Shown one piece after another: positions 7,478 to 44,882 of a DNA stretch of 44,882 nt (position 1 is its first letter; every line of letters starts with the position of its first letter). Under the pieces are notes generated by a model that was not told the origin of the DNA, did no database searches, and worked only from the letters and a program-made list of their open reading frames with translations. The translations under genes and the position numbers were made by a program. The DNA is from Nitrospirota bacterium (lineage in GTDB: Bacteria; JACPQY01): positions 185,620 to 230,501 of the forward strand of contig JACPQY010000024.1 in the NCBI GenBank assembly GCA_016190245.1, in the 5' to 3' direction.

Positions 7478-9379
7478 ATGCACAACTCAATCGCACCCGA
7501 ATCCGGAGGACCAACCGAGAGGCCACCGAAACGGCGCACCCGTCTGCGCGAGGTGACGGTCCGTTTCGCGGGCGACTCCGGTGACGGCATCCAAGTCACG
7601 GGGTCGCAGTTCACCTCCGTCACCGCCATGGCCGGGAACGACCTCGCCACCTTCCCCGACTTTCCCGCCGAAATCCGGGCCCCGGCCGGTTCTCTCCCGG
7701 GCGTTTCCGGCTTCCAGATCCAATTCTCTTCCAGCGACATCTACACGCCGGGCGACCAGGCCAACGTCCTCGTGGCCTTCAATCCCGCCGCGCTCCGCAC
7801 GAATCTGAAAAACCTCGTTCCGAACGGCACCCTCTTCGTGAACAAGGACGAGTTCACGGACAAGAATCTCGAACGCGCCGGCTACGCCTCGAATCCACTC
7901 GGGGACGGTTCGCTGGCTGGCTACCGGCTCATCGAGATCCCCATGACCTCCCTCACGGTGAAAGCCCTCGAGAGCGTCGCCGCCCTCTCGCACAAGGAAC
8001 GAGAGAGGTCCCGCAACTTCTTCGCCCTCGGCCTAGTGTGCTGGCTCTACAACCGCCCACTGGCGCCCATCGAGAGGTGGATCCACAAGAAATTCGGCGA
8101 CACACCGGGGATCGAGGAAGGCAATAAGAAGGCCCTCCATGCCGGCTACAACTACGGCGACACGACCGAGCTGCTTCAGGTCGCGTATGAAGTCCCGCCC
8201 GCGCGGCTCCGCCCGGGCCTCTACAAGAACATCTCCGGCACAGTGGGGCTCGCGTATGGCCTCCTCACCGCCGCGCAGAAGGCCGGGCTCAAGCTGATCT
8301 ACTGCGGCTATCCGATCACCCCGGCCAGCGACCTCCTCCACGAGCTCTCGCTCTACAAGAACTTCGGCGCGATCACGATGCAGGCGGAGGACGAGATCGC
8401 CTCCATGAACGCGGCCATCGGCGCGTCTTTCGCGGGGGCGCTCGGCGTCACGGCCACCAGCGGCCCGGGAATGGCCCTGAAGAGCGAAGCGATCAATCTC
8501 GCGGTGATGACGGAACTGCCCGTCGTGATCGTGGACGTGCAGCGCGCCGGTCCCTCCACGGGAATGCCCACCAAGACCGAGCAAGCCGACCTCCTGTTCG
8601 CCATCCTCGGTCGCCCCTCGGAATCACCTCTGCCCGTGCTCGCGCCCTCCTCCGTGGCCGATTGCTTCAGCACCGCCCTCGAAGCGGTGCGGATCGCCGT
8701 GCGGTACATGACGCCTGTGATCGTCCTCGCCGACCTCTACCTGGTCTTCGGCTCGGAGCCGTGGCTCATTCCGGATCCGGACTCGATTGCACCGATCGAG
8801 ATCGAACCGCGGCGCAATCTGGGTCACGCTGCCGGCAACGGCGCGTACCGATCCTATGCGCGCGACCCGAAGACTCTGGCGCGGCCCTGGGTGCCCGCCG
8901 GCACGCCGGGCTTCGAACACCGGATCGGCGGCCTCGAGAAAAGCCAACTCTACGGTGATGTCTCCTACGACCCGGACAATCACGACGCGATGGTGAAACT
9001 CCGGGCCGAGAAGATCGAGCGCATCGCGCAAGACTACCCGCCGCAAGACGTGTACGGCGCGCCCGAGGGCCAACTCCTCGTCATTGGCTGGGGCAGCACG
9101 TTCGGCCCCATACGCACGGCGGTGGAACAACTTCTGGAGAGCGGCCTGTCCGTGGGCCATCTCCACCTGCGCCACCTCCATCCCCTGCCCGCGGATCTCG
9201 GCGGCATCCTGTCGCGGTACCGAAAGATCCTCGTACCCGAGAACAACTTGGGCCAACTCCGATTGCTGCTGCGGGGGCGCTACCTGGCGGACGTCCTCGG
9301 CTACAACCGCGTGACGGGCCAGCCGTTCAGCGTGCGAGAGCTTCGCGAAGAATTCCTGCGCCACCTCAACGGGAGTTGA
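7478..9379 (+). CDS. korA: 2-oxoacid:ferredoxin oxidoreductase, fused gamma-alpha subunit
   Basis: 633 residues. Residues about 20-190 are the gamma domain (VTVRFAGDSGDGIQVTGSQF), followed by the alpha pyrimidine-binding domain with YPITPAS (about residue 282), QAEDEIASMNAAIGAS and TSGPGMALKSEA, then a C-terminal domain II. With KorB it decarboxylates a 2-oxoacid, most likely 2-oxoglutarate, to the acyl-CoA while reducing ferredoxin, as in the oxygen-tolerant two-subunit enzymes. No 4Fe-4S delta domain is present. There is no Shine-Dalgarno before the ATG. korB follows directly. Confidence 0.93.
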   Translation: MHNSIAPESGGPTERPPKRRTRLREVTVRFAGDSGDGIQVTGSQFTSVTAMAGNDLATFPDFPAEIRAPAGSLPGVSGFQIQFSSSDIYTPGDQANVLVAFNPAALRTNLKNLVPNGTLFVNKDEFTDKNLERAGYASNPLGDGSLAGYRLIEIPMTSLTVKALESVAALSHKERERSRNFFALGLVCWLYNRPLAPIERWIHKKFGDTPGIEEGNKKALHAGYNYGDTTELLQVAYEVPPARLRPGLYKNISGTVGLAYGLLTAAQKAGLKLIYCGYPITPASDLLHELSLYKNFGAITMQAEDEIASMNAAIGASFAGALGVTATSGPGMALKSEAINLAVMTELPVVIVDVQRAGPSTGMPTKTEQADLLFAILGRPSESPLPVLAPSSVADCFSTALEAVRIAVRYMTPVIVLADLYLVFGSEPWLIPDPDSIAPIEIEPRRNLGHAAGNGAYRSYARDPKTLARPWVPAGTPGFEHRIGGLEKSQLYGDVSYDPDNHDAMVKLRAEKIERIAQDYPPQDVYGAPEGQLLVIGWGSTFGPIRTAVEQLLESGLSVGHLHLRHLHPLPADLGGILSRYRKILVPENNLGQLRLLLRGRYLADVLGYNRVTGQPFSVRELREEFLRHLNGS

Positions 9380-9402
9380 TCCGGTGGAATCCACACACCC
9401 CG

Positions 9403-9411
9403 CCCCCCCCC
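9403..9411 (+). other. C9 run at the 5' end of korB (frameshift site)
   Basis: Nine consecutive C between the best korB start (GTG 9384, with GGGAG 8 nt upstream) and the korB frame. The GTG frame and the korB frame are out of register here. Ten C (or seven) would join them and give the N-terminus VESTHPAPPPAPKLTRKD running straight into the family sequence. Confidence 0.7.
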
Positions 9412-9454
9412 GGCGCCGAAGCTCACGCGGAAAGACTTCCTGACCGAGCAGGAG

Positions 9455-10414
9455 GTGCGGTGGTGCCCCGGTTGCGGCGACTACTCCATCCTCAACGCGA
9501 CCACCCAGGCCTTCGCCCAACTCGGGATCCCGCGGGAGAAGTTCGTGATCGTCTCCGGCATCGGCTGCTCCTCGCGGCTCCCGTACTATGTCAACACCTA
9601 CGGCTTCCACGGCATCCACGGCCGCGCCCCGGCGATCGCTACGGGCGTGGCCCTGGCCAACCCGGAGCTTCACGTGTGGGTGGTGACGGGCGACGGCGAC
9701 GCCCTCTCGATAGGGGGCAACCACTTCATCCACACCCTGCGCCGGAACGTCAACCTCAAGATCCTGCTCTTCGACAACCGGATCTACGGCCTCACCAAGG
9801 GGCAATACTCGCCCACCAGCGAGTTCGGCAAGATCAACAAGAGCGCCCCCTACGGCACCCTCGAACGCCCGGTGGATCCGATCGCCCTCGCCTTGGCCGC
9901 GGGGGCCACGTTCGTGGCCCGTTCGGTGGACATCTATCAGAAGCACCTGGCCGAAGTCCTTCGCAAGGCAGCCCAGCACCGGGGCACCGCCTTCATCCAC
10001 ATTTTCCAGAATTGCTACGTCTACAACGACAACGCGTTCACCGAATTCGCGGACAAGGACGTGCGGGACGAGCGGAACGTTGACCTCGAGCACGGCCGGC
10101 CCGTCCTGTTCGGGAAGAACCGCGACAAGGGGATCCGACTCGACGGGATGCGCCCGGAAGTGGTGACCCTCGGAAACGGCGTGACCGAGAAGGACGTGCT
10201 GACCTACGACACCCGGAGCCTCACCCTTGCGCACATCTTCGCTCAGATGGCGCCACCCGCCTTTCCCATGCCGATCGGCATCCTTCACCAAGAAGAGCGG
10301 CCACCCTACGAGGAACTGGTCTATGGCCAGCTTGCGGCGGTGAGGGAGGCCAAAGGCGCCGGCGACCTTCGCGCGCTATTCCGCTCGGGCGAGACGTGGG
10401 AAGTGAGAGGGTGA
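9455..10414 (+). CDS. korB: 2-oxoacid:ferredoxin oxidoreductase, beta subunit
   Basis: The thiamine-diphosphate and iron-sulfur subunit paired with KorA. The first residues carry RWCPGCGDYSIL, with two of the cluster cysteines. Further on are GIGCSSR (third cysteine), GDGDALSIGGNHFIH (TPP/Mg binding) and DNRIYGLTKGQYSPTS. The GTG at 9455 is the only standard start in this frame, but it cuts off about a dozen residues (KLTRKDFLTEQE) that look native and has no properly spaced ribosome site. The true start is probably GTG 9384, reached through the C9 run at 9403-9411 if that is really C10 or if slippage occurs. Convergent with the Wzc-like gene. Confidence 0.9.
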   Translation: MRWCPGCGDYSILNATTQAFAQLGIPREKFVIVSGIGCSSRLPYYVNTYGFHGIHGRAPAIATGVALANPELHVWVVTGDGDALSIGGNHFIHTLRRNVNLKILLFDNRIYGLTKGQYSPTSEFGKINKSAPYGTLERPVDPIALALAAGATFVARSVDIYQKHLAEVLRKAAQHRGTAFIHIFQNCYVYNDNAFTEFADKDVRDERNVDLEHGRPVLFGKNRDKGIRLDGMRPEVVTLGNGVTEKDVLTYDTRSLTLAHIFAQMAPPAFPMPIGILHQEERPPYEELVYGQLAAVREAKGAGDLRALFRSGETWEVRG

Positions 10415-39608: not shown

Positions 39609-39683
39609 GCGGGTGTAGCTCAGGGGTAGAGCATCGCCTTGCCAAGGCGAGGGTCGAGGGTTCAAATCCCTTCGCCCGCTCCA
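39609..39683 (+). tRNA. tRNA-Gly (anticodon GCC)
   Basis: A complete cloverleaf: acceptor GCGGGTG pairs with CGCCCGC, D-arm GCTC/GAGC, anticodon stem TCGCC/GGCGA with loop TTGCCAA (anticodon GCC), T-arm with TTCAAAT loop, discriminator T and encoded CCA (39681-39683). It lies at the left end of the integrated element, and its 3' half is the likely attachment site. Confidence 0.97.
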
Positions 39684-39775: not shown

Positions 39776-40870
39776 CTACCCGGCTTGGGCCGGAGCATGT
39801 ACCGGATCGGCTCCCGTCTCACCCCGCCAGTAGGCATTGAGAACAACCCCGGCGCGTTTCAGGTTCCACGGGGACAGGTGCGCGTAGCGGAGGGTCATCT
39901 TGATGTCTTTGTGGCCGAGCAGTTCCTTGATCGTGAGGATGTCCAACCCGTTGATGGCAAGCCAAGAGGCGAAGGTGTGCCTCAAATCGTGAAAGCGGAA
40001 GTCCGGGAATCCGGCCCGCCTCCGGGCGGACACCCATGAATTCTTGAAGTTGTCGAATTCCTCCCCCTGGGGGTTGAAGAAAACGACTTCACTCTTGATG
40101 TGATGGGGTTTCCGGGAAAGGCACTCGTACACTTCATCCGTCATCGGAACCACGCGAACCGTGCTGTTCTTAGTCCCGATGATCTTGATCGCCCGGTTGG
40201 TGAAGTCTACCTGCTCCCACTTCATCGAAACGATTTCCCCCCGCCGCGCCCCGGTGTGAAGGGCCGTCAAGACGATGGGGTACAGGTGGGCGGACTTGCT
40301 TGACCGGCATTCGTCCAGCAGGGTCCGGGACTCTTCCACCGTGAGATAGCGGAGCCGTCCGGGGTCACCCTTCAATGGCTTCACCTTGTGGGCTACGCTC
40401 GTTTCAATCTCTCCCCACTCAAGGGCCTTGGTGAACAGGTGCTTCAACGTGGTCAGTTCCTTGTTGATCGTGTCCCGCTTGATCGTCCCACCCTTCGCGC
40501 TTGCTTCGTCCATGCGTCGGGTGATGTACGTTTCGATGTCCTTCCGGGTGATGTCGGCCAACGTCCTTTTCCCGAAGCATTCCTTGAACCGGAAGAGGAT
40601 GGAACGATCCCGGATGTAGCTTTCCGCCGTCTTTCGGGACTTCGACCACGATTCAAGGTATCGGTCGGCGAATTCGGCAAAGGACACCCCGGCGGGCCGT
40701 GGGTTGAGAAAGGTGAAGTCACCCGCCGCGATCTTGGCCTTGATGGCCGCTTCGGCCCTAGACGCCTCTTTGAACGACGTACCGGCGGGTGATCGGTAGC
40801 GCTCTAGGTTCTCCCCCTTGCCGTACCACGCCTGAACCCAATACGTTTCACCCCGTTTGTACACGCTCAT
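39776..40870 (-). CDS. Tyrosine site-specific recombinase (integrase)
   Basis: 364 residues. Arm-binding N-terminus (MSVYKRGETYWVQAWYGKG), core-binding domain (VSFAEFADRYLESWSKS), and catalytic domain with Arg in LHTGARRGEIV, Lys in GTKNSTVRVVPM, HDLRHTF (His-x-x-Arg), GHKDIKMT and nucleophile Tyr about 329 in RYAHLS. ATG 40870 is preceded by GGGGAG and overlaps the RHH gene stop (ATGA). It would insert the element into tRNA-Gly. Confidence 0.96.
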   Translation of the reverse strand: MSVYKRGETYWVQAWYGKGENLERYRSPAGTSFKEASRAEAAIKAKIAAGDFTFLNPRPAGVSFAEFADRYLESWSKSRKTAESYIRDRSILFRFKECFGKRTLADITRKDIETYITRRMDEASAKGGTIKRDTINKELTTLKHLFTKALEWGEIETSVAHKVKPLKGDPGRLRYLTVEESRTLLDECRSSKSAHLYPIVLTALHTGARRGEIVSMKWEQVDFTNRAIKIIGTKNSTVRVVPMTDEVYECLSRKPHHIKSEVVFFNPQGEEFDNFKNSWVSARRRAGFPDFRFHDLRHTFASWLAINGLDILTIKELLGHKDIKMTLRYAHLSPWNLKRAGVVLNAYWRGETGADPVHAPAQAG

Positions 40871-41061
40871 GGAGTCTCCCCTTTCTTGGCTTGCTTGAAC
40901 GGCCGCCGACACGTCGGGCACGTACCAAGGAAGGACAGGACCGCCCGGCGCATCACCTCCGACGCTGATACCCCCATGTCCTTCGCCGTCCGCCTCACAA
41001 GGTCAAGCTCACTCTCACGGATTTGAAAAGCCGTCAAGGTGTAGCCTTGTTTCTGTTTCAT
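40867..41061 (-). CDS. Ribbon-helix-helix protein with CxxC, integrase-coupled
   Basis: 64 residues. FQIRESELDLVRRTAKDMGV and SASEVMRRAVLSFL form an RHH-like strand and two helices, and the C-terminus has a single CPTC followed by a basic tail. It overlaps the integrase by 4 bp and is transcribed from the promoter at 41068-41096. Likely roles are repressor of that promoter or recombination directionality factor; both are inference. Confidence 0.7.
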   Translation of the reverse strand: MKQKQGYTLTAFQIRESELDLVRRTAKDMGVSASEVMRRAVLSFLGTCPTCRRPFKQAKKGETP

Positions 41062-42483: not shown

Positions 42484-42511
42484 CCCTCACTGCATCTCCG
42501 GCGAGAGAAAC
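42484..42511 (+). repeat. 28-bp direct repeat, left copy
   Basis: CCCTCACTGCATCTCCGGCG with 8 more bases, identical to 43925-43952. Contains a small TCTC/GAGA hairpin. It begins 1 bp after the RelE-like stop codon. Confidence 0.85.
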
Positions 42512-42655
42512 GCCTACCTTCGTACCGCCCCTTTCACCGTGGAATATGGGGATCGCCATGTGTCAGCCAAGGTGTTACCCACGGCCACGTCATGTTCCAC
42601 GATAACTACGTAGGAACAACAGGCAATCTTGGGAATGAGAATCTGGACCCAATCC

Positions 42656-42724
42656 GTCACCCCCGCGAAGGCGGGGGTCCAGTGAAATCAAGATGTTCTG
42701 GATTCCCGCTTTCGCGGGAATGAC
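42656..42724. repeat. Paired palindromic repeat (REP-like)
   Basis: Two hairpin halves, 42656-42682 and 42698-42724, related as an inverted repeat of 27 bp with five compensated differences (for example CCCCCGC-GAAG-GCGGGGG against TTCCCGC-TTTC-GCGGGAA). The core GCGAA(A/G)GCGGG is the common form of mobile palindromic repeats in many genomes. Around it, 42512-42771 has no gene, only AGGTGTTACC twice (42570 and 42754). Confidence 0.75.
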
Positions 42725-42771
42725 ATTTCTGCCCTGACTTTGACGTGACCTTGAGGTGTTACCAAGTCTCA

Positions 42772-43924: not shown

Positions 43925-43952
43925 CCCTCACTGCATCTCCGGCGAGAGAAAC
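43925..43952 (+). repeat. 28-bp direct repeat, right copy
   Basis: Identical to 42484-42511, in the same orientation, 1,441 bp away. It lies 7 bp after the end of the tiny membrane protein gene. Confidence 0.85.
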
Positions 43953-43984: not shown

Positions 43985-44404
43985 TCACTGCGTTACCCCG
44001 ATCACCCGCCGGACAAGGGCCGGGGCCGCCGGAGGGTGACAGGTAGCGCACACAGGAACCCCGTGGATGCTCACCCAGAAGGTAGACCCCCCGCAAGCCC
44101 AGCAGGGACGGGAAGAATCCGCCTTTCCGCCAAGCTCTGGATGTGTAGTGGTTGGCGGTTTGGCGGAAAGGGTGCACTTAGACCCTAAGTCATTGTAATT
44201 ACGCTGGAATACTTCCGCCAAGCCATTCCGCCAAGGGGCAGCGGAATTCGGGGGCTTGGCGGAAGCGTCCACGATGGCGGAATGGATCGTTTTCAGCCGT
44301 TCCAAGTAGGCAAGGGTGCGGTCGGAGGGCTTCCCCTCCCGGCGCAAGCGTTCAAGGTATTCCTCCCCTCGGCGGATCGTCTCGGACAGAGTTTCCGGTG
44401 TCAT
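43985..44404 (-). CDS. Zinc-ribbon protein, replication-associated
   Basis: 139 residues. A helical N-terminus (SETIRRGEEYLERLRREGKP), a middle rich in SAKPP repeats, and a C-terminal four-cysteine ribbon (CWACGGSTFWVSIHGVPVCATC). ATG 44404 lies 3 bp after the stop of the RepA-like helicase, so it is coupled to it. The DNA in its middle carries the TTCCGCCAA cluster. A role in element replication is inferred from these two facts. Confidence 0.65.
   Translation of the reverse strand: MTPETLSETIRRGEEYLERLRREGKPSDRTLAYLERLKTIHSAIVDASAKPPNSAAPWRNGLAEVFQRNYNDLGSKCTLSAKPPTTTHPELGGKADSSRPCWACGGSTFWVSIHGVPVCATCHPPAAPALVRRVIGVTQ
44125..44282. repeat. Iteron-like cluster of TTCCGCCAA
   Basis: Exact 9-mer TTCCGCCAA at 44125, 44213 and 44226, and its complement TTGGCGGAA at 44160 and 44256. 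Near copies are TTGGCGGTT (44152) and ATGGCGGAA (44274). The gap 44169-44212 is AT-richer and holds CTTAG-ACC-CTAAG. The unit is read in several frames by the overlapping gene (LAE, WRN, LGGK, SAK), so the repetition is at DNA level. Confidence 0.75.
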
Positions 44405-44407
44405 CTC

Positions 44408-44882
44408 TCAAAAGGGTGGTTTTCCATCGGTCCACGATTCCTTGAACTCACCCACCGGCAGGGCTACCGGGTCAACACCTCCGACCGCATAGACTCCCCG
44501 CGATACCCGTTTGACCCCGGCTGGTTGACCCGCCAGTACCCGTTGAATCGTCCGTTCCGCGAAGTTCTTCAACCCCGCACACGAAAGGATCTCGCTCGTC
44601 TTGTAGATTCCGGGCCGAAGGGACCCAATCGCCGCACCGCAAGCCGTGTCCGTATTCGCCGTCTCCCAGCCGTCCGGGTCTTGGCACAGTTCAAAGCGAT
44701 CCTCACCGGCAAGGTGAAAAGTGAGGGGGGGAAAGTGCGTCCCGAAGAAACGATTTTTCGCCACGCACAATCGACGGATGCCGTCATCCTGGCTGCTCGC
44801 CCCCTCCCGGCGCTCCAAGTTCAGAAGAATGGGGGCGGAAGACGGTGAAGCCGAATCCCCTCGACCCCGTAGAGCCGGGTTC
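44408..44882 (-). CDS. RepA-like AAA helicase (C-terminal part)
   Basis: 157 residues of an open frame continuing past the window edge. PILLNLERREGASSQDDGIR and RLCVAKNRFFGTHFPPLTFH resemble the end of the RecA-like core of RepA/AAA_25 replicative helicases of plasmids and satellites, followed by a winged-helix-like tail (YKTSEILSCAGLKNFAERTI). Walker motifs would be outside the window. A start at TTG 44818 is rejected because homology continues upstream. Confidence 0.72.
   Translation of the reverse strand, partial: NPALRGRGDSASPSSAPILLNLERREGASSQDDGIRRLCVAKNRFFGTHFPPLTFHLAGEDRFELCQDPDGWETANTDTACGAAIGSLRPGIYKTSEILSCAGLKNFAERTIQRVLAGQPAGVKRVSRGVYAVGGVDPVALPVGEFKESWTDGKPPF

Follow-up and report, generated by a model that had tools for sequence, protein, structure and literature searches.

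A repeat cluster inside a zinc-ribbon coding sequence as the probable replication site of a tRNA-linked integrative element

Introduction

Why would a small coding sequence next to a helicase gene carry five copies of one 9-bp word? The question arises near the end of a 44,882-nucleotide stretch of DNA (the window), where an initial annotation took such a cluster for the replication origin or the excision control site of an integrated element. For integrative elements outside model species, the origin is mostly not known. An initiator helicase with iterons downstream of its gene is an arrangement of a known kind: the Rep helicase of SaPIs uses its C-terminal domain to bind short iterons that lie immediately 3' of the gene encoding it (PMC7581432), and in the PICIs of E. 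coli an AT-rich region is flanked by two iteron sets (PMC6092414).

Results

The word TTCCGCCAA occurs in five exact copies within 158 bp, three on the plus strand (44125–44133, 44213–44221 and 44226–44234) and two inverted (44160–44168 and 44256–44264), the same counts as in the initial annotation. Two near copies had been claimed as well; one, TTCCGCCAT (44274–44282, minus strand), is found within 44125–44282 by a one-mismatch rule and the second is not, while a further one-mismatch copy, TTCCGCGAA, lies beyond this interval at 44555 on the plus strand. The cluster scored 5.5–6.0, against a maximum of 3.0–3.5 in dinucleotide shuffles of the local region (z 9–11). No exact TTCCGCCAA was found outside the cluster in the 44.9-kb window, nor a second cluster of it in the sequenced parts of the element, whose middle is an assembly gap. 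Equal frequency of the word across the genome had been named as what would count against a special site. Instead, the 10-mer TTCCGCCAAG stands at background in the 3.29-Mb assembly, where it and its reversed control occur 16 times each. The cluster accounts for 4 of the occurrences of TTCCGCCAAG, against ~0.0006 expected in 158 bp. Copies in both orientations flank an AT-richer gap (44171–44212) that was also part of the initial annotation; it is 57% AT, at the 99.3 percentile of the element, and may be a melting region. The copies form three inverted pairs whose arms are fully complementary over 12, 13 and 11 nt.

The repeats lie under a 139-aa ORF on the minus strand (43985–44404, putative start) that, as the initial annotation had it, encodes a zinc ribbon, CWACGG-FW-S-G-VCATCHPPA, with the pattern CxxC...CxxCHPP. 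Because the copies use both strands and three frames of this ORF (2, 2, 0, 2 and 1 for copies 1 to 5), as had been claimed, a protein repeat does not explain them. The ORF is modeled with three strands at pLDDT 88; a fold search with the ribbon model returned no significant PDB match, and the ribbon is without a Pfam or NCBIfam model. Protein searches gave no match to the whole ORF in genome contigs, viral contigs, phages or plasmids, and none to the ribbon alone in phages or plasmids. A degenerate DNA pattern, on the other hand, found the ribbon conserved at ~33 loci in many phyla, and in the phylum of locus L037 a ribbon search hit 3 of 395 genomes. At two loci beside replication helicases (L063 9666–10121 and L038 6275–6781), the ribbon is fused to a TubC_N docking domain (PF18563).

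What kind of element carries the cluster? As the initial annotation had it, the element is integrated: it starts at a tRNA-Gly (GCC) gene (39609–39683, plus strand; ARAGORN, Rfam), the 3' part of which (39636–39682) is the left attachment site, and a 47-bp copy of this part, 46/47 identical, lies on contig C42, 2.4 kb from the contig end. A tyrosine integrase gene follows the tRNA at 39776–40921 on the minus strand (Pfam PF00589, E 2.8e-33; PHROG integrase, E 6.2e-75). At the other side of the ribbon ORF, an open frame at 44408–44881 on the minus strand encodes the C-terminal 157 aa of a primase-helicase, the adjacent helicase of the initial annotation; its gene is cut by the end of the window, which is the end of its contig. 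The other end of the element (L174, G000:C42:17500–27517, element part 7641–10018) holds an unassigned 323-aa ORF, a gene for an Xis/AlpA-type HTH_17 protein and, running off the contig, a primase gene of which the N-terminal half is present, with a weak Toprim match. The two contig ends do not overlap, and the middle of the helicase falls in the assembly gap; we joined them because the att copies and the gene order match, and by position the helicase C-terminus and the Toprim half are most likely one gene. The two parts sum to ~7.6 kb, for an element of about 8 kb overall.

The gene set of the element is PICI-like, with an integrase beside tRNA-Gly, iterons, and genes for the HTH_17 protein and the Toprim primase close to the second att. 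When we looked for a P4-type helicase, a Toprim-like N-terminus was found in fragments, the core fell in the assembly gap and the C-terminus was without match. Neither Pfam nor PHROG gave a match to the helicase C-terminus, and its single-sequence model is poor (pLDDT 38), so that its DNA-binding domain is assumed.

Other repeated sequences were seen in the element. CACTGCATCTCCGGCGAGAGA occurs twice (42488–42508 and 43929–43949) and in five places of a second genome of the same phylum (G001), once with two mismatches. We considered it as a conserved non-coding signal and rejected this, since it reads on the minus strand as a C-terminus, FLSPEMQ followed by a stop; it is a good marker of the element family and was kept as such. 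REP-like inverted repeats, CCCCCGCGAAGGCGGGGG ... CCCGCTTTCGCGGGAATGAC, were noticed by eye at 42655–42725.

Within the phylum we compared two genomes. A decayed relative lies on contig C21 of G001, between 41-bp att repeats at tRNA-Arg; it has a truncated integrase, the ribbon, and a misplaced helicase that is joined to the beginning of the ribbon gene. The N-terminal and ribbon parts of the ORF are kept there as protein. In a 63-bp block shared with the window, the iterons at 44226–44234 and 44256–44264 are spared exactly while 9 other positions have changed (chance of sparing both, 0.04). Compared to the window, ~100 bp are missing, a gap that ends in two iteron copies, and the ribbon stands in another frame. 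Half of the cluster is lost from this sole close relative, a decayed element. Relatives that keep the protein and lose the repeats had been proposed as a test of the cluster. The outcome is mixed: this close relative retains the ribbon together with two exact repeats, while no cluster was detected at several of the distant ribbon genes. The same decayed element contains a 66-bp period repeat (L016 8421–8863) that encodes a repetitive protein of DEKGT-type units.

The CACTGCATCTCCGGCGAGAGA marker located four further sites in G001, and those on contigs C8, C16 and C18 encode replication helicases, with integrases adjoining tRNAs on C8 and C16. The sister element on C8 encodes a Prim-Pol/AAA_25 helicase with a C-terminal HTH and is without a ribbon gene; ATGTTGCGC occurs six times, on both strands, within 100 bp 3' of the helicase stop (z 9). 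The DUF3987 genes of C16 and C18 have weaker clusters (z ~3) at the same place, made of other words (TGTACGGTG and ATGCGAAA). Thus, the position of the cluster is constant in the G001 elements while the word and the coding context vary.

Does this position recur beyond the phylum? At the ribbon loci gathered with the degenerate DNA pattern, the proteins encoded upstream of the ribbon are AAA_25, DUF3987, Prim-Pol and Toprim helicase-primases. Of the 34 regions upstream of the ribbon, 14 contained a 9-mer cluster at z>=4; of 432 other windows taken from these loci, 6 did. Because selection by ribbon or repeats was to be avoided, we also sampled DUF3987 genes from 494 genomes of two phyla regardless of either feature, and found a 3'-end cluster at z>=3 in 12/38 genes, no more than about a third, compared to 0/37 gene-internal windows. 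As a positive control, the detector scored P4 crr at 7.6 and P4 ori at 9.4. At L022, L128 and L149, three copies at 9-bp pitch are opposed by three more. AT enrichment was modest overall (20/32 loci in the top quartile), and no cluster was detectable at ribbon loci L033, L036, L042 and L069. Two arrays were found farther downstream of a ribbon. The GGTAGACAA array of L027 (Acidithiobacillus), of closely spaced inverted pairs, lies 1423 bp downstream and away from the helicase end (z 15); that of L019, a near-palindrome, GTTCTGAAC, at 11-bp pitch, lies 4320 bp downstream (z 13.6).

Which protein reads the word? We compared words and helicase C-termini over 36 loci, trimming each C-terminus ahead of the first repeat to keep residues encoded by the repeats out of the comparison. 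Similarity of the word correlated with similarity of the C-terminus (Mantel r 0.385; 0/2000 permutations as high, p<=0.0005). The partial correlation of word and C-terminus given the helicase core was 0.215 (p 0.0003), and that of word and core given the C-terminus was 0.071 (p 0.06). The link between word and C-terminus may come partly from shared ancestry of the module. At ribbon loci, the correlation with the word was 0.475 for the helicase C-terminus versus 0.187 for the ribbon. Elements with homologous helicase tails can have a word in common while their arrays are rearranged and their flanks differ; this is the case for CTTGTTCCC in L024 and L038, which are of different phyla, and for GCTATTCCT in L041 and L130. 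Some tails match HTH families (HTH_7, 4.7e-8, in L055; HTH_5, 2.1e-4, in G001:C8). The zinc-ribbon protein is a poor candidate for the reader, because clusters exist without a ribbon and the word is only weakly predictable from ribbon similarity.

Discussion

What, then, does the cluster do? Because its place just 3' of the helicase gene recurs and its word tracks the helicase C-terminus, we think that it is probably a cis-acting replication site of the tRNA-linked ~8-kb element, either the origin itself or an essential crr-like partner. The element would excise, and its Toprim primase-helicase would then bind the TTCCGCCAA iterons via its C-terminal domain. The opposed copies may seat helicase assemblies on either side of the AT-richer gap, which would melt and allow the helicase-primase to begin replication. 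The replication site would thereby be fitted into the small zinc-ribbon coding sequence just downstream of the helicase gene.

Similar arrangements are found in several known replicons. In lambda-type origins, the iterons read by the initiator lie inside the replication gene O. The iterons of the window also lie inside a coding sequence, but in the neighboring gene, on both strands and in three frames, whereas those of lambda are in the initiator gene itself. In P4, crr is annotated as non-coding and is duplicated as two 120-bp units, a second cluster (ori) exists, and alpha belongs to a different helicase family. The window cluster resembles P4 repeats that consist of an 8-bp word in both orientations, with 9–18 bp steps within each group, and that occupy a block of 300 bp immediately 3' of the alpha primase-helicase gene, between alpha and int (X51522). 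With PICIs and SaPIs, the window element shares short iterons just 3' of the helicase gene, around an AT-rich stretch; it differs in that helicases of the window type are of other families, the cluster overlaps a coding gene and no phage dependence is known. In pRN1, the origin lies immediately downstream of the primase-helicase gene, as the cluster does in the window, but the element reported as essential is a 100-bp stem-loop and not a repeated word (PMC4234260).

The pRN1 case suggests that structure could be what is read: the inverted copies would extrude hairpins recognized by the helicase, and the word would be a by-product of the stems. Consistent with this, the single-strand DNA fold of 44115–44292 beats that of shuffles (z −7.2), the inverted arms run beyond the 9-mer, over the 12, 13 and 11 nt given above, and flank agreement is higher between copies in opposite orientation (0.353) than in the same orientation (0.293), in 20 of 30 loci. 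However, inverted repeats of any kind fold well, many clusters consist mostly of tandem direct copies at 8–9 bp pitch (L031, L128 and L161), and structure alone does not need distant elements with homologous helicase tails to have a word in common. We therefore regard a structure-read origin as improbable. A sub-case of the replication site would be a copy-number or incompatibility locus that is bound by the initiator while replication starts elsewhere, much as P4 has crr directly 3' of alpha and ori elsewhere. This seems unlikely, although not strikingly so, given that the sequenced parts of the element, the assembly gap excepted, contain no second TTCCGCCAA cluster.

Could the repeats instead be a regulatory site, at which a repressor, the Xis-like HTH_17 protein or the zinc-ribbon protein controls transcription or excision? 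Xis-type proteins bind short repeats, and the element encodes an HTH_17 protein. However, the clusters lie downstream of the helicase gene and not in front of it, the one on G001 C8 has no ribbon gene, and ribbon similarity is a weak predictor of the word; we find such a site quite improbable. Of the two functions in the initial annotation, the origin is favored by the recurrent place 3' of the helicase gene and by the link between word and tail, while excision control is disfavored because the clusters track the helicase gene and not att, and because the Xis-like gene sits at the opposite end of the element. Chance or a protein repeat deserves next to no credence: two copies in the same frame do encode SAKPP, but the copies occupy both strands and three frames and no shuffle came near the observed score. 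Att arm sites were rejected as being in the wrong place, and a CRISPR or a transposon end was also considered and rejected.

A replication site addressed by the helicase itself may have a wider meaning. In our estimate the chances are even that helicases of the AAA_25 and DUF3987 families, encoded by integrative elements in many phyla, form a large unrecognized class of self-addressed replicons, in which each helicase tail would read its own 7–9 bp word. The words would stand in opposed tandem groups, often with a copy every 9 bp, at or within the 3' end of the helicase gene and the next gene, and tail and word would form a readable code for the prediction of origins. What appears to be new is the helicase families (AAA_25 and DUF3987), the range of phyla in which they occur, the fact that clusters often overlap coding sequence, and the correlation of word and tail; in the openly accessible literature, we found no paper that joins DUF3987 and iterons.

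Provided that clusters do keep to this position and that words do follow tails, one could predict from sequence where very many elements have their origins and to which incompatibility groups they belong, and dozens of pairs of helicase tail and word would be at hand for learning how such domains choose DNA. The window cluster, with repeats that overlap a protein-coding gene on both strands and in each of its three frames, would also clearly exemplify a replication site evolving under two constraints at once.
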